NCBI GenBank assembly: GCA_021827405.1
Contig: JAKAVY010000022.1
Coordinates: 1-33,275 of the forward strand
Reading direction: 5' to 3'
Length of the DNA: 33,275 bases
Origin: Thermoplasmata archaeon
GTDB lineage: Archaea > Thermoplasmatota > Thermoplasmata > Lutacidiplasmatales > UBA184
The notes beneath the pieces were generated by a model, which was not told the DNA's origin, made no database searches, and was given only the letters and a program-made list of their open reading frames with translations. The position numbers and the translations under genes are program-made. How positions within the stretch are numbered: the stretch's first letter is position 1; each line of letters opens with the position of its first letter. Positions 21,113 through 33,275 of this stretch are shown here, piece by piece.

Positions 21113-22162
21113 CTAAGCCCCCGGAGGGTCGGGGAAGGGGGGTCTCGTCCCCTCCGGGGCGGCCGCCGGGGCGGCACGCGCGTCAACGCCCGGGTCCGAG
21201 GGCGGCGTTCCGGGGGGACCGCGCCTTCGAAGGTCCTTCACCAGTGTGTCGGTCCGCCAGCGGAGGGAGAAACCGTGCCTCTCGAGGAGCGCCGAGGTCC
21301 GCCGCTCGTACTCCGGGACCGTGACCGCGGCGCGGTCGGCCCCGCGCTGGGAGAGCCAGTCAAGCGCCACGGAAAGGAGCCCCTCGCTCTCCTCCGGCGC
21401 GATATCCTCCGCCACGTAGGGAAGGGAGAGGAGGCCCGGTTCCCGAGGGGTGGTGAACGTGCCTCGGGCGTAGGCGGTGGGGCGGCCGGGCGGGCCCGTG
21501 CACCAGGCGGAGCTCTCGGAGAGAAGGACCCGGTCGAGATACCGGCGCGGAAGGAGGGAGGAGACGCCCGCGGGAAGGACCTCCCGGACCCGGGGCGGCA
21601 TCCCTTCCCGGTGGGCCTCCACCAGGAAGGGGACGTCGGAGGGCAGGGTGGCCCGGACCCGTCCCGGGGGGGGAGGACGCAGGGATGCCGCCGGGAGGGG
21701 GTGGACCCATCCTTCGACCCGGCGGAGCCGTTCATAGCCCCGGCCGCGGTAGAGACGTTGGGCCGCCAGGTTGTCCTCCATCACGTCCAAGACCGAGTAG
21801 CGTCGCCGGCGGCGTCGGCAGGCGAGCTCGGCCCGGTCGAGAAGGGCGCTCGCCACCCCTCGTCGCCGGTGATCCGGGTCGGTCATCACCATGGCCAGGT
21901 ATCCCAGTCCCCCCTGGAAGGAGACGAAGGTGGTCCCCACGAGGCGGTGGTCCTCCTCGGCCACCAGGAAGAGCACCGGTGGGACCCCGAAGAGCCGGCT
22001 CAGCCGGAGCAGGGTCCCCAGGGCGCCGTGGTACGCCTTCTCCACCACCCGGAGGAAGTGCGAGGCATCCATCCCGGTGAGGGCGTTCTCCTGGGCGAAG
22101 TTGAGGGAAAGCTCCCGGAACACCTCGGGGCCGTCGGACGGGCGGAACTCCCTCAGCATCAT
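21113..22162 (-). CDS. Tandem GNAT-family acetyltransferase
   Basis: 349 residues from ATG 22162. The first GNAT domain (1-160) contains LREFRPSDGPEVFRELS, VLFLVAEEDHRLVGTTFVSF, the acetyl-CoA site in VMTDPDHRRRGVASALLDRA (R-R-R-G-V/A pattern) and LDVMEDNLAAQRLYRGRGYE. A second, more divergent GNAT-like half follows (RVRATLPSDVPFLVEAHREG to AVTVPEYERRTSALLERHGF). Such double-GNAT proteins acetylate small molecules or protein amines; no substrate is predicted. The last 35 residues are a proline tail. Its ATGATG start contains the TGA stop of the upstream HEAT gene, so the two are translationally coupled. Confidence 0.88.
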   Translation of the reverse strand: MMLREFRPSDGPEVFRELSLNFAQENALTGMDASHFLRVVEKAYHGALGTLLRLSRLFGVPPVLFLVAEEDHRLVGTTFVSFQGGLGYLAMVMTDPDHRRRGVASALLDRAELACRRRRRRYSVLDVMEDNLAAQRLYRGRGYERLRRVEGWVHPLPAASLRPPPPGRVRATLPSDVPFLVEAHREGMPPRVREVLPAGVSSLLPRRYLDRVLLSESSAWCTGPPGRPTAYARGTFTTPREPGLLSLPYVAEDIAPEESEGLLSVALDWLSQRGADRAAVTVPEYERRTSALLERHGFSLRWRTDTLVKDLRRRGPPGTPPSDPGVDARAAPAAAPEGTRPPFPDPPGA

Positions 22163-23712
22163 CGTCCCCGGTCCCCTCCAGGGACCCGGCCCGGGAGGAC
22201 GCCCCGGGAGACCTCCCGGCGGGTCGGGACCCTCCCCGGGGGATGGGACTCCATCCGGGGGAGCGCCAGGGGGCGGTCGGCCTGCCCCCACGGGAGCGCC
22301 TCCAAGGAGCGGGCGAGGGCCTCGAGGACGCGGCTGCGTTCCAGGGGAGGGGATCGGGCCGCCTCTCGTGCCAGGGCCAGCAGGAGCCCGTCCAAGAGGG
22401 TCTGGGGGGCATCGCTGCGGAGGCGGAGGGACCCTTCCCGTTCGGCGATCACCGTCACGGTGGGCCCCCCGGGGGTGGCCCGGTCGCCTTCCCCCGGCCG
22501 GGAGGCGGAGACGGCCTCCTCGAGCATGGAGAGCAAGCGAGGCCGGGAGCGGGGGTCCCCGATGCGTCCGACGGCCCAGACCGCGGCCAGCCGTACCTCA
22601 CCGTCCGGGTCTGAGAGGCGGGCCCTCAGCGCGGAGGCGGTCCGGCGCGACCTAAGGTAGCCGAGCCCCACCGAGGCTCCGCGCCGTACCCATGGGTCCG
22701 GGTCGGAGAGGCGTTCCACGAGGCGGGGGGTCTCCCCTCCGCCGCCCAGGCGTCCTAAGACCTCGGCCGCGGTCCCCCGGATGGTCCGGACGGGGCTCGA
22801 CAGCAGCGACCGGACCCGGGGGACCGCCTTCCTCATCCCCAGTTCCCCGAGGGCGTGGAGGGCGGAGACCACGGTGGGGGAGGCCGCCTCCTCGGTGGCC
22901 GCGAGCAGCGTGGGGAAGGCCCGGGGGTCCCGGATCCGGCCGAGGGCCACCAGGAACGCGGGCCGGGAACCCGAAGGCTCATGGGGGTAACGGTCCAGGA
23001 GGGTCCCCACGCTCCGCCGGTCCCGGAAGCGCCCGGCCGCGACCGCCGCCGCGATGCGGACCCGTTCCGAGGGGTCGGAGAGGAAGGGACGGAGGCGTTC
23101 CATGACGTGAGGGACCGGGACCCGGGCGAGCCCCAGGACCGCCTCCCGCCGCACCCGCTCCATGGGGTCGGCCAACCCTCGCATGAGCCAGGGCTCGGCG
23201 CGAGCGTCCCCATAGTTGGCGAGGGTGGCGAGGGTCCCCCTCCGGATGAGGGGGTCGGGATCGTCCAGGAGCCGGTCGAGCGTCTCCTTCCCTTCCGGAC
23301 GGCCGAGGTCGTTCAAGACCCAGGCGGCGGGGATGCGCACCTCGGCCGACGGGTCGGAGAGGACGGCGAGCAGCGCCTCCACGACCCCCGGCCCGGCAAG
23401 CCCCCCGAGCCTCTCCGCGGCGAGGGCCCGGACCCGGAAGTCCGGGTCTTGGAGGGACCCGAGGAGGGCCGGTCGCGCTCCGGCGGGGGGAGACCGTCTC
23501 AGCGCCCAGAGCCCGCCGAGCCGGACGGAGGGGTGAGGGTCCTTCAGGGCGTCGAGGAGGGGCGTCAGGTCGGGAAGCGAAGGCGCCTCCCCGAGAAGGC
23601 GAAGGGACTCCAGGCGCTCCCGTAGGGTCCCGTCCTTCAGGCGGGCGAGGGTACGCTCCAGCCCGGGGGGCACCGGCCCCGGGCGGGTCGGCGAGGGGGA
23701 AGAGGGGCTCAT
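22159..23712 (-). CDS. HEAT-repeat protein
   Basis: 517 residues from ATG 23712. About 11-12 HEAT (PBS-lyase-like) repeats of 30-31 residues run from about 35 to 385, with recurring cores such as LKDPHPSVRLGGLWALRRS, LQDPDFRVRALAAERLGGLA, LSDPSAEVRIPAAWVLNDLG, LSDPDPWVRRGASVGLGYL and LSDPDGEVRLAAVWAVGRIG. The C-terminal 100 residues (TVTVIAEREGSLRLRSDAPQ, then helices) are distinct. HEAT arrays are protein-binding scaffolds. An ATG at 23724 is open, but the TATA-like box at 23734-23742 sits about 27 nt before 23712, favouring the latter as a leaderless start. Coupled to the GNAT gene. Confidence 0.9.
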   Translation of the reverse strand: MSPSSPSPTRPGPVPPGLERTLARLKDGTLRERLESLRLLGEAPSLPDLTPLLDALKDPHPSVRLGGLWALRRSPPAGARPALLGSLQDPDFRVRALAAERLGGLAGPGVVEALLAVLSDPSAEVRIPAAWVLNDLGRPEGKETLDRLLDDPDPLIRRGTLATLANYGDARAEPWLMRGLADPMERVRREAVLGLARVPVPHVMERLRPFLSDPSERVRIAAAVAAGRFRDRRSVGTLLDRYPHEPSGSRPAFLVALGRIRDPRAFPTLLAATEEAASPTVVSALHALGELGMRKAVPRVRSLLSSPVRTIRGTAAEVLGRLGGGGETPRLVERLSDPDPWVRRGASVGLGYLRSRRTASALRARLSDPDGEVRLAAVWAVGRIGDPRSRPRLLSMLEEAVSASRPGEGDRATPGGPTVTVIAEREGSLRLRSDAPQTLLDGLLLALAREAARSPPLERSRVLEALARSLEALPWGQADRPLALPRMESHPPGRVPTRREVSRGVLPGRVPGGDRGR

Positions 23713-23733
23713 CCTCCCCCGCATGCGCGCGGG

Positions 23734-23825: not shown

Positions 23826-24167
23826 ATGCCCGCGGGCGAGCCGGCCAAGCCGGTGGCCGTGATCGGAGAGCGCGAGCTCGTGATCGGTTTCCGGTTGATC
23901 GGGGTGAAGGACACGTTCCCCACGAACGAGCAGAACGCCGTGAAGGAGTTCCAGCGCGTGTTCGACGAACGGTCCCACAGCCTCATCCTGGCCAGCCGGA
24001 AGATCCAGACCCTCCTCCCCGAGACGCTCCGCCATGCGGTGGAGAGCTCCATCGACCCGCTCGTGGTCTTCCTCCCCACCCCGGGGGCCGGGGAGGAGCC
24101 GGAGAGCGTCGCCACGCTGGCCAAGCGGGTCCTTGGGGTCTCCCTGGAGACCCTGGTCGCCCCTTGA
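23826..24167 (+). CDS. atpF: A-type ATP synthase subunit F
   Basis: 113 residues. Subunit F is the small central-stalk subunit of archaeal A1Ao ATP synthase. It shows the family pattern [20 protein letters not shown] at the start, [20 protein letters not shown] in the middle and [12 protein letters not shown]...[10 protein letters not shown] at the end. First gene of the operon and 13 nt before atpA. Subunits K, E and C, which precede F in many archaeal operons, are absent. Confidence 0.93.
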
Positions 24168-24180
24168 AGAGGAAACAACC

Positions 24181-25950
24181 ATGGCGCAAGGACAAGTGAA
24201 GCGGGTCTCGGGCCCGGTGGTGGTGGCGAGCGGCCTGGAGGGACCCCGGATGTTCGACGTGGTCCGGGTGGGGGAGCTCGGGCTGGTGGGGGAGGTCATC
24301 CGTCTGGTGGAAGGCGACGCCACCATCCAGGTCTACGAGGACACCACGGGGATCCGGCCGGGGGACAAGGTGGAGAACACCGGCCAGGCGCTCTCCGTGG
24401 AGCTGGGCCCGGGACTGTTGAAGTCCATCTACGACGGGATCCAGCGTCCCCTGAACGTGATCCAGCAGCAGGGAGGGGACTTCATCGCCCGGGGCCTGAG
24501 CGCGGCGCCCCTCGACGAGAAGGCCGTCTGGGAGTTCACCCCCACGAAGAAGGTGGGGGAGAAGGTGGTCCCGGGCGACATCCTGGGGACCGTGCCCGAG
24601 ACCCCGCTGCTCACCCATCGGGTGCTGGTCCCGCCGGGCGTGGAGGGGACGCTCCGCCGCCTGGCGGCCGGGCGCTACACCGTGAGGGACACCATCGGGG
24701 AGGTGCAGACCGCGGAGGGCAAGAGCGTCCCGTTGGGGCTCTCCCACCGCTGGAAGGTCCGGGTCCCCCGGCCGGTGACGCGGAAGCTCCCTCCCGTGGT
24801 CCCCCTCATCACGGGGCAGCGGGTCATCGACACCTTCTTCCCCATCGCGAAGGGAGGCACGGCCGCCATCCCCGGGCCCTTCGGCAGCGGGAAGACCGTG
24901 ACCCAGCAGCAGCTGGCGAAGTGGGCCGAGGCGGACGTGGTGGTCTATGTGGGTTGCGGGGAGCGGGGGAACGAGATGACGGAGGTGCTCACGGAGTTCC
25001 CGCACCTGGAGGACCCGAAGAGCAAACGGCCGCTCATGGAGCGGACCATCCTCATCGCCAACACCTCGAACATGCCGGTGGCGGCCCGGGAGGCCAGCAT
25101 CTACACCGGCATCACCATCGCCGAGTACTACCGGGACATGGGCTACGACGTGGCCCTCATGGCGGACTCCACCAGCCGTTGGGCGGAAGCGCTCCGGGAG
25201 ATCTCCGGGAGGCTGGAGGAGATGCCGGGCGAGGAGGGGTACCCGGCCTACCTGGGCCGCCGCCTGGCCGAGTTCTACGAGCGGGCCGGCCAGGTGGAGG
25301 TCTTGGGCCCCGGGGCCCGTCCGGGCTCCGTCACGGTGATCGGCGCGGTGAGCCCGCCGGGCGGGGACGTCTCCGAGCCCGTGAGCCAGAACACCCTGCG
25401 GGTGACCCGGGTCTTCTGGGCGCTCGACGCCTCGTTGGCGAACCGGCGGCACTTCCCCTCCATCAACTGGCTTTCCAGCTACTCCCTCTACACGGGGGAC
25501 CTGGGCCCGTGGTACGCCGAGCACGTGGCGAAGGACTGGGCGGCGCTCCGCAACGAGGCCATCGAGCTCCTCCAGAAGGAGGCGGAGCTCCAGGAGATCG
25601 TCCAGCTGGTGGGGTCGGATGCCCTCCCCGAACGGGAAAAGGCGGTCTTGGACACCGCCCGGATGATCCGGGAGGACTACCTCCAGCAGAGCGCGTACGA
25701 CGAGGTGGACACGTACACCTCCATCGGGAAGCAGTTCCGCATGCTCCGGGCCATCCTGGACTTTGGCCGGCGGGAGACCGAGGTCGTGGGGAAGGGGGTG
25801 GCGCTCTCCAAGGCCGTGGAGCTCCCGGTCCGGGTGAAGATCGCCCGGATGAAGACCCAGAGCGAGAAGGAAGGCCTCGGCGCCTTCGACCTGTTGGACC
25901 GGGAGATGACCGACGGGTTCCGGGTCTTGGAGGAGGAGGTGGTGGCGTGA
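24181..25950 (+). CDS. atpA: A-type ATP synthase catalytic subunit A
   Basis: 589 residues, full length and intein-free. The Walker A motif GPFGSGKT is at 232-239. Other landmarks: the non-homologous insert region ([20 protein letters not shown]), [16 protein letters not shown] with the catalytic glutamate, [20 protein letters not shown], and [20 protein letters not shown] with the arginine-finger side residues. It forms the A3B3 head with AtpB and hydrolyses or synthesises ATP. Start ATG 24181 follows GAAGAGG; the ORF is open further upstream but only within atpF. Confidence 0.98.
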
Positions 25951-27356
25951 GCGCCCCCCGGACCCCCCCGGTCCCGGTGGACTACCGGACCATCGAGCGG
26001 ATCGCCGGGCCGCTGCTCTTCGTGGAGGGCGTGGACAACGCGGCCTACGGGGAGATCGTGGAGATCACCCTCCCGGATGGGGACCGGCGGACCGGTCAGG
26101 TGCTGGAGTCCCGGCGGGGGCTCGCCATCATCCAGGTCTTCGGCGCGACGCTGGGGATGAACGACACGTCCACCACGGTGAAGTTCTCCGGCGAGGTGGC
26201 CCGGCTCGCCTGCTCCGACGAGATGCTCGGCCGGGTCTTCGACGGCCTGGGGACGCCCCGGGACGGGGGCCCCAAGCTCATCGCCAAGGACCGGCGGGAG
26301 ATCGTGGGGAACGCCATGAACCCGTACTCCCGGGAGCAGCCCAGCGAGTTCATCCAGACCGGCGTGAGCGCCATCGACGGCTCGAACACCCTGGTCCGCG
26401 GACAGAAGCTCCCGATCTTCTCGGCGGCGGGGCTCCCGCACAACGCCCTGGCGGCCCAGATCGTGCGGCAGGCGAAGGTCCTCAACGCGTCGGAGAACTT
26501 CGCGGTGATCTTCGGGGCCATGGGGATCACCAGCGAGGAGGCGAACTACTTCCTCAAGGAGTTCGAGGACACCGGGGCGCTCCAGCGGACCGTGGTCTTC
26601 CTGAACCTCTCCTCCGACCCGGCCATGGAGCGGGTGATCACGCCCCGGATGGCGCTCACCACGGCGGAGTACCTCGCCTACGAGCGGGACATGCACGTCC
26701 TGGTGGTGCTCACGGACATGACCAACTACTGCGAGGCGCTTCGGGAGGTCTCCGCCGCGCGGGAGGAGGTCCCCGGGCGCCGGGGGTACCCCGGGTACCT
26801 CTACACCGACCTGGCGCAGCTCTACGAGCGGGCCGGGAAGCTCAAGGGGCGTAAGGGGTCCATCACCCAGTTCCCCATCCTGACGATGCCGGCCGACGAC
26901 ATCACCCACCCCATCCCGGACCTCACCGGCTACATCACGGAGGGGCAGGTGGTGATGAGCCGGGACCTGCAGCGGCGGGGGGTCTACCCGCCCATCGACG
27001 TGCTGCTCTCCCTCTCCCGGCTGATGAACCAGGGGATCGGGAAGGGTCGGACCCGGGAGGACCACCGGGGGGTGGTGGACCAGCTCTTCGCCGGTTACGC
27101 CACCGGGAAGGACCAGCGGGCGCTCTCCGCCATCGTGGGGGAGGAGGCGCTCAGCGACGTGGACCGGATCTATCTGAGGATCGCCGACCGCTTCGAGCGG
27201 CGGTTCGTGAACCAGGGCTACGAGGAGGACCGGAGCATCGAGACCACGCTGGACATCGGCTGGGACGTGCTCGCGGAGCTGCCCGAGCGCGAGCTCAAGC
27301 GCATCAAGCCGGAGTTCATCCAGAAGTACCGCAAGGCACCCGCCCCGGCCGGCTGA
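25947..27356 (+). CDS. atpB: A-type ATP synthase regulatory subunit B
   Basis: 469 residues from GTG 25947, overlapping the atpA stop (GTGA) and preceded by GGAGGAGGAGGT. As expected for subunit B the P-loop position is degenerate ([17 protein letters not shown]). Strong family segments: [60 protein letters not shown] and [20 protein letters not shown]. The much longer open frame beginning at 24921 only reflects a stop-free frame across atpA. Confidence 0.97.
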
Positions 27357-27370
27357 GGACGGAGCCGACG

Positions 27371-28042
27371 ATGCCGAACCTGGAGGTCACCCGCCCCACC
27401 CGGCTGGAGCTCATCCGGGCCAAGCGCCGGATCGTGCTGGCCAAGCGGGGGCTCAACCTGCTGAAGCTCAAGCGCTCCGCCCTCATCGCGGAGTTCTTCA
27501 AGATCTCCCGGCAGGCCCTGGAGCTCAGGGGGGACCTGGCCCAGCGCCTCCGGGAGGGGTACACCGCCATCCGGGAGGCCGAGCTCGCCGAGGGGAGGAT
27601 CCGGCTGGAGAGCGTCTCGTTGATGCTCCCCCAGCTCAAACCCTTAAGCGTGGAGAGCCGCAACGTGATGGGGGTGAGGACCCCGGCCATCGCGGACGCG
27701 CGCTACGACCCCGAGACGGCCCGGGCGCTCCTCAGGCTCCCGGCCAGCGTGGACGAGTCCCTCCGCCGGTTCCAGGGCGTCTACGCGGTGGTGCTCCAGG
27801 TGGCGGAGAAGGAGAACGCCATGCGCCGGCTCCTCCGGGAGATCGAGAAGACCAAGCGCCGGGCCAGCGCCATCGAGAACGTCATGATCCCCCGGCTGGA
27901 GGGGACCGTGCGCTACATCAAGTTCCGCTTCGACGAGCTCGAGCGGGACAGCTTCGCCATGCTGAAGACCGTCAAGCGGAAGATGGAGCGGGAGGCCGAG
28001 GCGCCCCGGGCCCCTCCCGAGGAGACCCATGCCCTCGCGTGA
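27371..28042 (+). CDS. atpD: A-type ATP synthase subunit D (central stalk)
   Basis: 223 residues. Subunit D is the coiled-coil rotor shaft. The N-terminal PTRLELIRAKRRIVLAKRGL NLLK region and the C-terminal EIEKTKRRASAIENVMIPRL with the following YIKFRFDELERDSFAMLKTV are the two conserved helices. It ends in an acidic tail and overlaps the next small ORF by 14 nt. Confidence 0.95.
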   Translation: MPNLEVTRPTRLELIRAKRRIVLAKRGLNLLKLKRSALIAEFFKISRQALELRGDLAQRLREGYTAIREAELAEGRIRLESVSLMLPQLKPLSVESRNVMGVRTPAIADARYDPETARALLRLPASVDESLRRFQGVYAVVLQVAEKENAMRRLLREIEKTKRRASAIENVMIPRLEGTVRYIKFRFDELERDSFAMLKTVKRKMEREAEAPRAPPEETHALA

Positions 28043-28151
28043 GGAGGCGCTCCGGCGGATGTGGACGGTCCAGCGGGGCTTCTTCCTGCTCAAGCTGGCG
28101 CTCCTCGGGGTCTTCGCGGCCGTGCTCTTGAACGTGCTGGGGGGGCTCTGA
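28029..28151 (+). CDS. 40-residue single-span membrane protein inside the ATP synthase operon
   Basis: ATG 28029 lies inside the end of atpD and TGA ends at 28151, one base before the atpH ATG. The product starts with a charged helix (MPSREEALRRMWTVQRG) and ends with one transmembrane helix (FFLLKLALLGVFAAVLLNVL). It fits tightly between two recognised genes and is too hydrophobic to be a chance frame. It is not the proteolipid K/c subunit: that needs at least two spans and an ion-binding acidic residue in the membrane, neither of which is present. It may be an accessory or assembly peptide of the Ao part; no family is recognised. Confidence 0.7.
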   Translation: MPSREEALRRMWTVQRGFFLLKLALLGVFAAVLLNVLGGL

Positions 28152-28152
28152 G

Positions 28153-28539
28153 ATGGCCGTCTCCCCGGGCACGGGGGAACCCTCCGTGGAGGCGCTCCGC
28201 CGGATCAAGGAGGCGGAGACCGCCGGGGACGCCCGGCTCAAGGAGGCCCGGGAGCGGGCGGAGAAGGAGAAGGCCCGGGCCCAGGAACAGGCCGCTGAGG
28301 AGCTCAAGCGGGCCCGGGAGGCGGCGGAGTCCGCCGAACGGGACCGGCGGGAGTCGTCCCGGCGGGAGGCCCAGGCCGAGGCGGCCCGGATCCTTGCCGA
28401 GGCGGAATCCCAGGCCCGGACCCTGGGCCAGATGACCGAGGCGGAACTGGACGACCGCTTCCCCGAGGTGGTGACGGCGCTCTTCGGGGACCTCTGGCCC
28501 CCGGCGGACGCGGGGCGGCCCGGCGCCCGGAAGCGCTGA
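28153..28539 (+). CDS. atpH: A-type ATP synthase subunit H (peripheral stalk)
   Basis: 128 residues, dominated by one long Ala/Glu/Arg/Lys coiled coil (about 15-98, e.g. LRRIKEAETAGDARLKEARE and AEAARILAEAESQARTLGQM), with a short C-terminal globular end (LDDRFPEVVTALFGDLWPP). This matches AhaH-type peripheral-stalk subunits, which pair with subunit E. Position just before atpI agrees with the usual H-I order. Coiled-coil composition alone would be weak evidence; context makes the call. Confidence 0.82.
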   Translation: MAVSPGTGEPSVEALRRIKEAETAGDARLKEARERAEKEKARAQEQAAEELKRAREAAESAERDRRESSRREAQAEAARILAEAESQARTLGQMTEAELDDRFPEVVTALFGDLWPPADAGRPGARKR

Positions 28540-28556: not shown

Positions 28557-30572
28557 ATGGGACTGCGCTCCGCCCCCATGAGCCGGGTGGTCCTGGTGGG
28601 GCTCAAGGAGGACCGGGACCGGATCCTCTCCTACCTCCACGACCACGGGGTGATCCAGGTGGAGTCCCTGGGCAAGGAAGGGTTGCGGGAGTTCTCCCCC
28701 GACCATCCCGGGGGGGAGCAACGCGAGGTCCTCGAGCAGCAGGCCCGGGTGAAGGCGCTGGTCCAGGCGCTCCCGCCGGTGCCGGTGACCCTCAAGCAGC
28801 GTTTCGAGGACGTCCCGAGCCTCCTCGCCGCCGCCCGGGCCGTGCCCGTCGACGAGGAGGTGCGCCAGCGGAAGCGGCGGGAGGACCAGTTGATCACGGA
28901 GCGGAAGGCGGCGGAGGACGAGCTCCACCTGGTGGAGGACTACGCCTTCTTCCCCGGGGACTTCGAGCTCCTTCGGGCCCAGAGCCTGGTCTCCTACTTC
29001 GGGGAGGCTTCCGAGGAGGCCTTCGCCGAGTTCGAGTCCGAGCTCTACCGGGAGGCCCCGGACCGGCTCCTCTTCTATCGTCTGACCGAACGCCGGGTCC
29101 GGTTCGTGGTGAGCCTCCCCCGGGAACGGGCCGAGGGGGCGACCCGGTCGGCCCAGAAGCTCTCCGTCCGGCTCATCCCGGTGCCGGAGGGGCTTTCCGG
29201 GACGGCCAGCGCGCTCGCCCCGGCGCTCGCCGCGCTCGTGGAGGAGAAGGAGAAGGCGCTCGCGGAGGTCCGCCGAGAGCTCGCGGAGCTCGCCCGGCGC
29301 TGGGTCCCGGTCCTGCTCCCCCTGGAGGAACAGCTGGACGTCGAGGCGCGCAAGGCGGAGCTCATCAGCCGGATGGGGGCGAGCCGGGAGGTCTTCGCCC
29401 TGGAGGGCTGGATGCCGAAGGACCGGGTGGAGGGGCTCTCCCGGGGGCTGGAGACCCTCACCCGGGGGCGGACGTTGCTCTTCCCGGTGAAGAGCGAGGA
29501 GGCGCCCCCCACCCTCTTGAAGAACCGCCGGGGCCCCCGGGCCTACGAGTTCTTCATCCGGTTCTACTCCTTCCCGCAGAGCGCAGAGCTGGACCCCACC
29601 TTGGTCTTCGCCATCGTCTTCCCGATCTTCTTCGGGGTGATGCTCGGGGACGTGGGCTACGGGGCCGTCATCCTGGCGATCTGCCTCTGGCTCATCTGGC
29701 GGGTGGGGAACCCCCGGGCCGGCCGCACCCTCGTTCCCCGGTCCCTGGTCCGTTTCACCAGCATGATCATGCCCCCGTCGGCGATGAAGCAGCTGGCCAA
29801 GGCGCTCATCCCCGGGTGCCTGGTCGCCATCGGGCTGGGCGTGCTCTTCGACGAGTACTTCGGGTTCTCCCTGGCGCAGCTCACCTTCGGGCACTACAAC
29901 TTCCAGCTCTTCGACCCGGTGAGCAACTCCGGGGTGGCGAAGCTCCTGCTCTACACCGGCTACACCGGGCTCGCCATGGTGAGCCTCGGGTTCCTCTTCG
30001 GCGTGGTGAACTCCCTGACGGAGGGGAACCGGCGGGAGGCTGTCGCGAAGGGGATCTGGCTGGTCCTCGCCTGGGACATCGCGCTCGCCGGGCTCGCGCT
30101 ACTCCACAAGCAGATCACCATCAACCCGGTCGCGACCCCGCTCACCGGGGTCTTCCTGGGGGTGGCGGTGGCCCTCATCCTGGGGGTGGCGGCCCTGGAG
30201 GGGGGGCAGGGGGCCATCGAGGTGATGAGCCTGGTGAGCCACATCCTCTCCTACACCCGGCTGGTGGGCATCCTTCTGGCCTCGGTGATCCTGGCGGTGG
30301 TGATCAACAAGATCGCCTTGGGTCTCTTCCACAACGGCTTCCTGGCCATCGTGGGCGTGGTCATCCTGGTCATCGGGCAGGGCTTCAACATCGTCCTGGG
30401 GGTCTTCGAGCCGGGCATCCAGGGGGCCCGGCTCGTCTACGTGGAGTACTTCTCGAAGTTCTACCACGGCGGGGGCCGGATCTTCCGTCCCTTCGGGGCC
30501 CCCCGGCGCTACACCGAGCCCCAGTTCGCGCCGCCGTCGTCTCCACCGGCCGGACAGGTCCCCGGCCCCTAG
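28557..30572 (+). CDS. atpI: A-type ATP synthase subunit I (a-type membrane subunit)
   Basis: 671 residues. The N-terminal half (1-320) is soluble (SRVVLVGLKEDRDRILSYLH; LEGWMPKDRVEGLSRGLETL), the C-terminal half membrane-embedded. Hallmarks: DPTLVFAIVFPIFFGVMLGD with VGYGAVIL, a series of hydrophobic spans, the proton-path arginine R568 in ILSYTRLVGILLASVI, and QGFNIVLGVFEPGIQGARLV, YVEYFSKFYHGGGRIFRPF. It forms the proton half-channels against the K ring. It is the last ATP synthase gene in the window; the K gene expected next is absent, and a transposase gene starts 170 nt downstream. Confidence 0.96.
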   Translation: MGLRSAPMSRVVLVGLKEDRDRILSYLHDHGVIQVESLGKEGLREFSPDHPGGEQREVLEQQARVKALVQALPPVPVTLKQRFEDVPSLLAAARAVPVDEEVRQRKRREDQLITERKAAEDELHLVEDYAFFPGDFELLRAQSLVSYFGEASEEAFAEFESELYREAPDRLLFYRLTERRVRFVVSLPRERAEGATRSAQKLSVRLIPVPEGLSGTASALAPALAALVEEKEKALAEVRRELAELARRWVPVLLPLEEQLDVEARKAELISRMGASREVFALEGWMPKDRVEGLSRGLETLTRGRTLLFPVKSEEAPPTLLKNRRGPRAYEFFIRFYSFPQSAELDPTLVFAIVFPIFFGVMLGDVGYGAVILAICLWLIWRVGNPRAGRTLVPRSLVRFTSMIMPPSAMKQLAKALIPGCLVAIGLGVLFDEYFGFSLAQLTFGHYNFQLFDPVSNSGVAKLLLYTGYTGLAMVSLGFLFGVVNSLTEGNRREAVAKGIWLVLAWDIALAGLALLHKQITINPVATPLTGVFLGVAVALILGVAALEGGQGAIEVMSLVSHILSYTRLVGILLASVILAVVINKIALGLFHNGFLAIVGVVILVIGQGFNIVLGVFEPGIQGARLVYVEYFSKFYHGGGRIFRPFGAPRRYTEPQFAPPSSPPAGQVPGP

Positions 30573-30741: not shown

Positions 30742-32550
30742 ATGGCCCGCCGCTCCGGCAGCCTCCACCTCAAAGCCATCCCCAAAGGCGAGCGTACCTA
30801 CTACCACCTGGCGACCAGTTTTCGTGACGGCCCTCATGTCCGGACCCGGTACCTCCATCACTTCGGCGCCCTGACCCCGCAGCAGGCCGAGGGGTTACGC
30901 CACTGGCTCGGCCAGTGGACCGCCCTCGGTCCGGGCCGTGTGCCGTCCCTCGCAACGTCTCCGCGGGATGCCCTCGAGTTCGAGGAGAACCTCCCCTCCT
31001 TCCGCCACGGCATCGTGGCGCTCGGCCACGCCGCCGTCGGGCGGATCGGTCTTCGGAGCGCCCTCAACGACGCCTTCGGTCGCGTTCCCGAGAGGGGCCT
31101 CCGCCTCAAGCTCGTCGAGGCGATGGTCCTCAACCGCCTCGAGGACCCCTCCAGCAAGCTCCGCCTCGCCGAGGAGTGGTATGGACGGACCTCGCTGCCC
31201 CACCTCCTCGACCTCGCCGTCTCGAGCTTCGATGAGGACGACCTCTACGAGACCATGGACCTTCTCGACGCGCGTCGGGACCGGATCGAGGCGCTCGTCT
31301 ACGAGCGGGTGGTCCGACCGCTGGAAGGCGGGGGGAGCGGCGGGGTCCTGATGAAGGACATCAGTTCGACGTATTTCGAAGGCCAGGGAGTCCGCAGCAC
31401 CCTGGAGGCGAAGGGCTACTCGCGCGACCGGCTGCGGGGCTCGCTCCAGGTGAACTGGTCGCTGGTGCTGACCCCGAAGGGCTACCCCGTCACGCTCGAA
31501 ATCTACTCGGGGAACACCAAGGACGAGACGACGGTGGTCGGGACCGTCGAGCGGCTGGAACGGGTGTTCGGGCTGAAGGAGGGCACGTTCGTCGGGGACC
31601 GGGGGATGCTCACGGAGACGAACCTGAAGCTGTTGCACGCGGCGGGGTTCCACTATGTGGTGGCGGAGACACTCTGGAACGAGAAGGAGGTCCTGGCGGA
31701 GGCGGCGAAGAAGACGCGGACCCCGATGAGCCCGGTACGAGTTGCGGGAAAGGGACGGCAGTCCCGTCTGGAGGTGGGGAGCTCCCCAGAAGTAGGGGAA
31801 GAGCTGCGGGAGGAGAGTTGGTGCGAGGTGGTCGGGAAGGACGGGCGGCGTCACATCGTGGTCTACTCGGAGGTGAAGCGGCAGGACGAGTTCGAGTCGC
31901 TCGAGGAACGCCTGGCAGCGGGTCGGGCGATCGAGACGTGGGCGCGAGCCGGGGTCAAGAGGGGCGAGTGGACGGAGGCGAACCACCACGAGCTGGTGAA
32001 GTCGGTGACGAAGCAGCTCGTGAAGGAAGGGGCCGACCTGCTCTACGAGGTGGAGTGGGACCAGGACAGCGTCGGCGGGCTCAACCTCCTGGTGAACCGG
32101 GAGCGCAAGGAGTGGGAGGAGGCAAAGGCCGGGTGGTGGATGCTGACCACCGACACCGAGCTCTCGGGTCCGGAAGTGGTGGAGGTGTACAAGTCGCTCG
32201 CGGTGGTGGAGCGAGCGTTTCGGACGATCAAGGGGCCGATCCAGGTGCGACCGGTGGGTCACCAACTGGACCGGCGGATCCGGTCGCACCTGTACGTGTG
32301 CGTGCTGGCGTATCTGGTGGAGCGGTGGATCCAACTCAAGGTGCGGGAGGGCGGAGAGCCGGGGTGGGCGCGTCTCACCGGGGAGCAGGCGCTCGAGGAG
32401 GTCCGAGAAGGACGGCTCCAGCAGGTGGGGATCCAGGGAACGGAGATTCGACGATGGAAGGTGGCCGGGTTCACTCGAGTGGCCGAGCTTCTCCTCGAGA
32501 AGCTGGGAGTGAAGGCCGAGGCGATGAGGGTCCCGACGGGGCTCCTGTAG
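30742..32550 (+). CDS. IS1634-family (IS4-like DDE) transposase
   Basis: 602 residues, uninterrupted. It cuts and rejoins element ends by a DDE mechanism. Proposed catalytic triad: D206 in LMKDISSTYFEG (the D-x-S/T-x-x-Y-F-E-G signature of this family), D286 in FVGDRGM, and E490 in SLAVVERAFRTIKG, followed by the typical VRPVGHQLDRRIRSHLYVCV. The start MARRSGSLHLKAIPKGERTY with YYHLATSFRDG is also characteristic. The reading frame is complete, so the element may be active. Codon use includes more non-GC-ending choices upstream of the gene than the ATP synthase genes, compatible with recent arrival. Confidence 0.93.
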   Translation: MARRSGSLHLKAIPKGERTYYHLATSFRDGPHVRTRYLHHFGALTPQQAEGLRHWLGQWTALGPGRVPSLATSPRDALEFEENLPSFRHGIVALGHAAVGRIGLRSALNDAFGRVPERGLRLKLVEAMVLNRLEDPSSKLRLAEEWYGRTSLPHLLDLAVSSFDEDDLYETMDLLDARRDRIEALVYERVVRPLEGGGSGGVLMKDISSTYFEGQGVRSTLEAKGYSRDRLRGSLQVNWSLVLTPKGYPVTLEIYSGNTKDETTVVGTVERLERVFGLKEGTFVGDRGMLTETNLKLLHAAGFHYVVAETLWNEKEVLAEAAKKTRTPMSPVRVAGKGRQSRLEVGSSPEVGEELREESWCEVVGKDGRRHIVVYSEVKRQDEFESLEERLAAGRAIETWARAGVKRGEWTEANHHELVKSVTKQLVKEGADLLYEVEWDQDSVGGLNLLVNRERKEWEEAKAGWWMLTTDTELSGPEVVEVYKSLAVVERAFRTIKGPIQVRPVGHQLDRRIRSHLYVCVLAYLVERWIQLKVREGGEPGWARLTGEQALEEVREGRLQQVGIQGTEIRRWKVAGFTRVAELLLEKLGVKAEAMRVPTGLL

Positions 32551-32579: not shown

Positions 32580-33032
32580 TCAAAACGACCCGCTCACGTC
32601 AGAAAGTGCCCGTGGCTCCTGGGGGAAGTTCGGGGTCACGAACCGCGCGTCCGACCCGTTCTGAATCGCCCGGTACGCAATGGCCACGGCGATGTGCGAC
32701 TTCCCGGTCCCCGAGGGACCGAACGCCACCAGGTTCCTCCCCTCCTCGACCAGCTCCGAGCCCAGGTAGGGCCCCAAGAGATCCTTCCGAAGAGACGACT
32801 GGAACGGGCAGTCGAACTCCTCGATGGTCCGCAGGAACGGGAAGTGTGCCCGCCGGGTCATCCGCTGGACCCGCGTCTGGCCACGATGGACGATCTCCTC
32901 GGAGAGGAGGATGCGGAGGTACTCCGCATACCCCATCCTCTCCTTCTCGGCCCGGACCTGGAGCTCGCTCCAGAGCCGACGGACCGTCGGCATGTGCAGT
33001 CGCTTCAACATCGCGTCTACCTCCGTGGTCAT
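32580..33032 (-). pseudogene. istB: Truncated IstB-like ATP-binding protein (IS21 helper)
   Basis: 150 residues against about 250 for intact IstB, the AAA+ helper that selects target DNA for IstA. The N-terminal domain (MLKRLHMPTVRRLWSELQVR, then AEYLRILLSEE) and Walker A GPSGTGKSH (105-113) are normal. Homology stops after ARFVT at about residue 133 (near position 32634); the Walker B region, sensor motifs and C-terminus are missing, and 17 unrelated residues lead to the stop. The sequence after the break resembles the non-coding end of an IS21 element, suggesting an internal deletion. ATG 33032 overlaps the istA stop (ATGA). Confidence 0.8.
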
Positions 33033-33275
33033 GCCTTCGCCTCCACGATGGAGAGCCACCGTCCGATGGACTCCGAACGATACCACCCGCGTTCCAGCGC
33101 CTGCTGGAACGCCTGGGAGAGCCGCTCGGGGCCATGCTAGAGGAGCAGATCGAAGAGGTTCTCCACGTCCCAAGCCCACACTCGGGGACGGCTGTGGACG
33201 AGCTCCGTCAGGAACTCCTCGGCGGTGGGCCCGACCTCGAAGAGACGCTGGCGCTTGTAGTAGAGCTGGGCCCGG
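33029..33275 (-). pseudogene. istA: 3' end of IS21-type transposase IstA with in-frame amber stop, partial
   Basis: Read leftwards from the edge on the minus strand: RAQLYYKRQRLFEVGPTAEE, then FLTELVHSRPRVWAWDVENL, FDLLL and a TAG at 33137-33139, after which the same frame continues HGPERLSQAFQQALERGWYR and SESIGRWLSIVEAKA to a TGA at 33029-33031. Helical content and the ATGA junction with istB show the frame is the true IstA C-terminus, so the TAG is an internal nonsense codon (most simply GAG to TAG). The gene is cut by the window edge. Confidence 0.7.

Follow-up and report, generated by a model that had tools for sequence, protein, structure and literature searches.

A small single-span membrane protein gene between atpD and atpH in acid-type archaeal ATP synthase operons

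The atp Locus and Its Small Gene

The stretch of DNA considered here (33,275 nucleotides, hereafter the window) makes up the entire contig G000:C18 of an acid-habitat Thermoplasmata archaeon from the Lutacidiplasmatales/UBA184 group, and carries ATP synthase genes in the order atpF, atpA, atpB, atpD, small gene, atpH, and atpI (Table 1). The product assigned to atpH/G has only weak Pfam matches (vATP-synt_E, V-ATPase_G). Upstream of atpF, the opposite strand carries genes for a GNAT acetyltransferase and a HEAT-repeat protein, and the contig ends downstream of atpI with a DDE transposase gene, which directly follows atpI, and an IstB-like IS21 ATPase gene.

Table 1. Features of the window around the atp genes.
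Feature	Position	Strand	Basis
GNAT acetyltransferase	21113..22189	-	
HEAT-repeat protein (521 aa)	22159..23724	-	
atpF	23826..24167	+	PF01990, E 7e-13
atpA	24178..25950	+	PF00006, E 1e-76
atpB	25947..27356	+	PF00006, E 9e-82
atpD, central stalk subunit D	27371..28042	+	PF01813, E 2.2e-47
Shine-Dalgarno-like motif GAGGAG	28013..28028	+	Within atpD 3' end, upstream of small gene ATG
Small gene, 40-aa single-span membrane protein	28029..28151	+	ORF with ATG start; conservation, dN/dS, predicted helix
atpH/G, peripheral stalk	28153..28539	+	Coiled-coil-like, H/G position; aligns with relatives' counterparts
atpI, membrane stator subunit ('a')	28557..30572	+	PF01496, E 6.6e-22
DDE transposase	30742..32550	+	PF01609
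IstB-like IS21 ATPase	32580..33179	-	PF01695

The small open reading frame (ORF) lies exactly where an earlier sequence-only reading of the window had placed it: 14 nt are common to its 5' end and the 3' end of atpD, and a single base separates its stop (28151) from the atpH start (28153). Its 40-aa product, MPSREEALRRMWTVQRGFFLLKLALLGVFAAVLLNVLGGL, has a hydrophobic span that begins near residue 18 (mean of 2.6 on the Kyte-Doolittle scale across 17 residues), and a single-sequence AlphaFold2 model consists of one helix from residue 4 to 39 (mean pLDDT 91.7), in agreement with the charged helix and single transmembrane span of that reading. Likewise, the V-type peptides described below (36–63 aa) combine a basic N-terminal segment with one membrane helix that extends almost to the C-terminus, leaving a tail of about five residues. 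Since the segment preceding the span is net positive in 79/79 V-type members, the positive-inside rule predicts a cytoplasmic N-terminus (N-in) and a membrane-crossing helix.

The remaining ATP synthase genes of this genome are found on a separate contig in the order K-E-C (G000:C52:4223-6153, locus L213). The K proteolipid encoded there beside E and C (G000:C52:5902-6153) has 83 aa and two spans, and is about 84% identical, over the aligned part, to K of a V-type Nitrososphaeria genome. The small peptide, with one span and no match to PF00137, is thus not the K proteolipid (c subunit), as had been supposed from the sequence. The text of PMC9287336 gives the gene order of Lutacidiplasmatales as FABDH/GICEK; because K-E-C is on another contig here, and not 3' of I as published, mobile elements may have split the atp operon in the genus of the window.

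Conservation and Selection within the Family

Family loci were gathered by AtpD similarity, with Candidatus Lutacidiplasma among the close relatives of the window. Among 68 distinct family junctions, about 63 hold an in-frame single-span ORF between D and H, 61 of these ORFs having been found by an automatic filter and two (L083 and L088) by inspection; the frame of L083 is intact and lacks the usual start codon. The filter-found ORFs are 36–63 aa long, all but one (60/61) start 7–22 nt before the end of atpD, and in most family members the stop lies within a few bases of atpH. A short hydrophobic ORF free of frameshifts is thereby conserved between atpD and atpH in nearly all relatives, whereas frameshifts or the lack of a conserved ORF would have refuted the sequence-only reading.

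The start of the small gene is accompanied by a four-base Shine-Dalgarno-like motif, located 4–16 nt upstream and inside atpD, in 60 of the 60 family members tested, vs. 5–11 of 60 in shifted control windows. Together with the overlap, this motif supports the co-translation with atpD that was suggested earlier, and by its sequence features the small gene bears every sign of translation. Purifying selection, proposed at the outset as a check, is apparent as well: codons overlapping atpD being excluded, 16 independent close pairs gave a pooled dN/dS of 0.245 (p ~1e-22) and the 12 pairs of the V-type subset a dN/dS of 0.264 (p 5e-15), these p-values being indicative as substitutions were treated as independent. 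In the 16 pairs, substitutions at codon positions 1/2/3 numbered 71/33/154, a third-position excess. Between the window and its nearest relative, the congener L006, Sd was 9.5/30.3 and Nd 4.5/71.7, and the two single pairs with dN/dS above 1 have few substitutions each.

Spurious ORFs are numerous in GC-rich DNA, and a chance open frame in a GC-rich genome would be one account of the 40-codon ORF. This account is refuted by the conservation, the dN/dS, and the Shine-Dalgarno-like motifs. The ORF is moreover kept in AT-rich genomes of other phyla and is found in none of the control loci (0/42), leaving chance a vanishingly small likelihood. That the small ORF is a real gene under selection is therefore practically certain. 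Its mean column identity, 22%, is lower than those of the core subunits, a value that fits a loosely constrained accessory part and a peptide with few specific contacts equally well.

The small gene is absent from genus g4 (L033, L036, L037, and L208) and from locus L086, where H begins 1–16 nt after D. A profile built from the family found one clear place in each whole genome, at the atp locus, with E-values down to 1e-16, many of these genomes having contributed to the profile; genomes without sequences of their own in it (G034, G036, G026, and G029) also matched at the atp locus, with E-values of 2e-13 to 5e-8. No copy was detected elsewhere in the g4 genomes by this profile, which argues against relocation in that genus. 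Fusion to a neighboring gene was discarded too, as AtpH of the gene-lacking lineages has no added span and the span counts of AtpI are similar. The profile gave weak or no matches in the highly diverged G012, G008, and Thermoplasma, and since it is insensitive to the most diverged members, absence by profile alone is not proof; the loss in g4 rests mainly on the direct D-H junction. Because the gene was lost in g4 and L086 and no copy was found elsewhere in g4, the enzyme can work without it: the small gene is not strictly essential, and is helpful rather than indispensable. In L086 (10381-12248), the genes run F-A-B-D-H-I-C-K, C and K both lying downstream of I, an order close to the published FABDH/GICEK and unlike the split arrangement of the window.

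The Small Gene in Other Archaeal Operons

Outside the family, the nearest AtpD proteins belong mostly to Nitrososphaeria and Marsarchaeota (50–55%), those of other Thermoplasmatota being at about 31–51%. This pattern matches the horizontal transfer of the acid-type "V-type-like" ATPase operon described in the text of PMC6863869 and the FABDH/GICEK order in that of PMC9287336. At the D-H junction, the small ORF is found in six Nitrososphaeria loci (L106, L107, L108, L110, L155, and L156), of which L155 and L156 have a TTG start and a hydrophobicity marginally below the filter cut-off, in the Marsarchaeota locus L111, and in 12/12 Thermoplasmatales loci examined, where the ORF of G140, for instance, encodes MIRNPWFDIGTRKYVKNVDITRAKDPKLIRKFIIIRNLIMLFNVAVAALILVLVWS. 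With s denoting the small gene, the operon reads K-E-C-F-A-B-D-s-H-I in Nitrososphaeria, Marsarchaeota, and Thermoplasmatales, and F-A-B-D-s-H-I in the family of the window. The small gene has thus shared the evolution of the acid-type (V-type-like) ATP synthase operon of archaea and, to judge from these gene orders, has kept its position through transfer of the operon between phyla.

A second layout characterizes other Thermoplasmatota, in which the order is H-I-K-E-C-F-A-B-D-s (full operon in L216); H-I-K-E-C-F-A-B-D is given in the text of PMC9287336 as the arrangement of most Thermoplasmatota orders. In 53/82 of these loci, D is followed by a single-span ORF of 40–60 aa that frequently contains a motif like DTPEKKAKW or EDPVKLRR, and among Thermoproteota A-type loci no such ORF occurs at the atpD stop (0/42). 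One member of this operon-end group matched PLDc_N, which was dismissed as a single-span look-alike. Comparison of the V-type and operon-end peptides by hhalign gave a probability of 4% (P 0.0095), with EALRRMWTVQ aligned to TPEKKARLIR, and the real sequences outscored composition-preserving shuffles with z of 4 to 7, values inflated by relatedness. Taken together, these scores are only suggestive of homology between the two groups; the common neighbor D in two permuted operons would be a stronger argument for it than the scores.

These layouts also bear on whether the peptide matters at all. The ORF could be a translational spacer, the reading of which couples atpD to atpH translation while the peptide itself is idle, as its start overlapping atpD and its stop a few bases from atpH in most family members would suit. 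However, its amino-acid sequence is under purifying selection with the single span and basic N-terminus kept, atpD and atpH couple directly where the small gene was lost, and the similar ORF of classic Thermoplasmatota is the last in its operon, leaving no further atp gene to be coupled, all of which makes a mere spacer very unlikely. Alternatively, the peptide could be unrelated to the enzyme and ride in the operon, e.g., as a general membrane or ion-homeostasis protein; it has no family match, and its link to the enzyme comes from sequence and position. Against such a passenger, which we regard as highly improbable, stand the strictly kept position next to atpD across phyla and in two permuted layouts, and the occurrence of a single copy linked to the atp locus. 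That the product of the small gene works with the ATP synthase is thus very likely.

Comparison with Known Small Membrane Proteins

The small peptides have no sequence match in Pfam, NCBIfam, or PDB, and a Foldseek search of PDB found nothing. Several small proteins of ion-motive ATPases are nonetheless comparable. AtpI, the first gene product of F-type operons, has two spans. AtpI/UncI is likewise a small operon-encoded membrane protein, with c-ring assembly as its candidate function, but the small peptide has a single span and no Pfam or NCBIfam match that would place it in that family. KdpF, a subunit of the Kdp K+-ATPase, is likewise a tiny single-span protein of an ion-motive ATPase, yet belongs to a different ATPase class; the KdpF family gave best E-values of 0.1 to 0.45 in a few V-type members, which are non-significant, and none for the window peptide. 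In the bacterium Enterococcus hirae, ntpH of the Na+ V-ATPase operon (ntpFIKECGABDHJ) also directly follows subunit D (PMC3608713), a likeness to the small gene in gene order.

The closest parallel is AhaG of Methanosarcina mazei, a 6.3-kDa protein of unresolved role in the enzyme, encoded by the last gene of the ahaHIKECFABDG operon, with a positional counterpart in the ahaGDBAFCEKIH operon of Methanothermobacter (PMC4350412; PMC3087415). Like the small gene, ahaG belongs to an A/V-type operon, comes immediately after the gene for subunit D, and encodes a small product with one hydrophobic stretch. It lies at the operon end, whereas the 40-aa gene of the window is internal, between D and H, so that the operon-end ORFs of Thermoplasmatota are the closer positional match. 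By position and topology, the small gene may be regarded as a counterpart of methanogen ahaG. Because ahaG was already known directly after subunit D in Methanosarcina, the label "unrecognised" given to the peptide by the sequence-only reading was only partly right: it holds for this lineage, as far as the texts of PMC6863869 and PMC9287336 go, which list nine subunits for acid-type operons with no mention of the small gene. AhaG has been stated to be missing from T. acidophilum and the plasmas of acid mine drainage (PMC3750248); this may be true of orthologues recognizable as AhaG, but does not extend to a small single-span gene downstream of D.

Proposed Role in the Membrane Sector

Overall, the best explanation, and a probable one, is that the small gene is an AhaG-like tenth gene of the acid-type archaeal ATP synthase operon, encoding a supernumerary membrane subunit or an assembly factor of Ao. 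The small gene begins within atpD and has a ribosome-binding motif of its own, so that its protein would be produced along with D. Its basic segment would then stay in the cytoplasm while the helix inserts N-in, and the peptide would join the membrane sector, most likely packed against subunit I or the c-ring. There, it could stabilize Ao or its assembly, by analogy with KdpF or with those small subunits of F-type enzymes that span the membrane once.

The suggestion of an accessory subunit or assembly factor stands insofar as the gene is selected, linked to atp, and single-span, the role itself being deduced from these properties. A stable supernumerary Ao subunit is our first choice, with about an even chance of being correct, and an assembly factor, which would transiently assist the insertion or joining of subunit I and the c-ring and be absent from the finished enzyme, is a close second, possible though rather unlikely. 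AtpI/UncI has such an assembly role for F-type enzymes. The product of the small gene is similarly small, membrane-bound, operon-encoded, and dispensable in one genus, but has one span vs. the two of the AtpI type. AhaG was not reported among the subunits recovered from M. mazei subcomplexes, which would suit an assembly factor, and is expected to give one very hydrophobic tryptic peptide (PMC4350412). A bolder reading of the stable subunit, less likely than not, is that of a conserved tenth subunit, homologous to AhaG, which would have accompanied the operon in each of its passages between phyla and, under low pH or high pressure, would aid the handling of protons or the stability of Ao.

Implications

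The invasion of acid soils and deep oceans by archaea has been credited to the acid-type ATPase operon, which is said to comprise nine genes. A tenth selected gene traveling with this operon appears to have been missed so far because it is only about 40 codons long, and projects that rebuild or express the acid-type operon should check for its inclusion. The clean losses in g4 and L086, with direct D-H coupling, constitute a natural experiment on its function. The finding also bears on the question of AhaG as a component of the A-type enzyme. If the homology with AhaG is true, a small single-span subunit encoded after D would be an ancient feature, as yet uncatalogued, that many rotary ATPases of archaea share.
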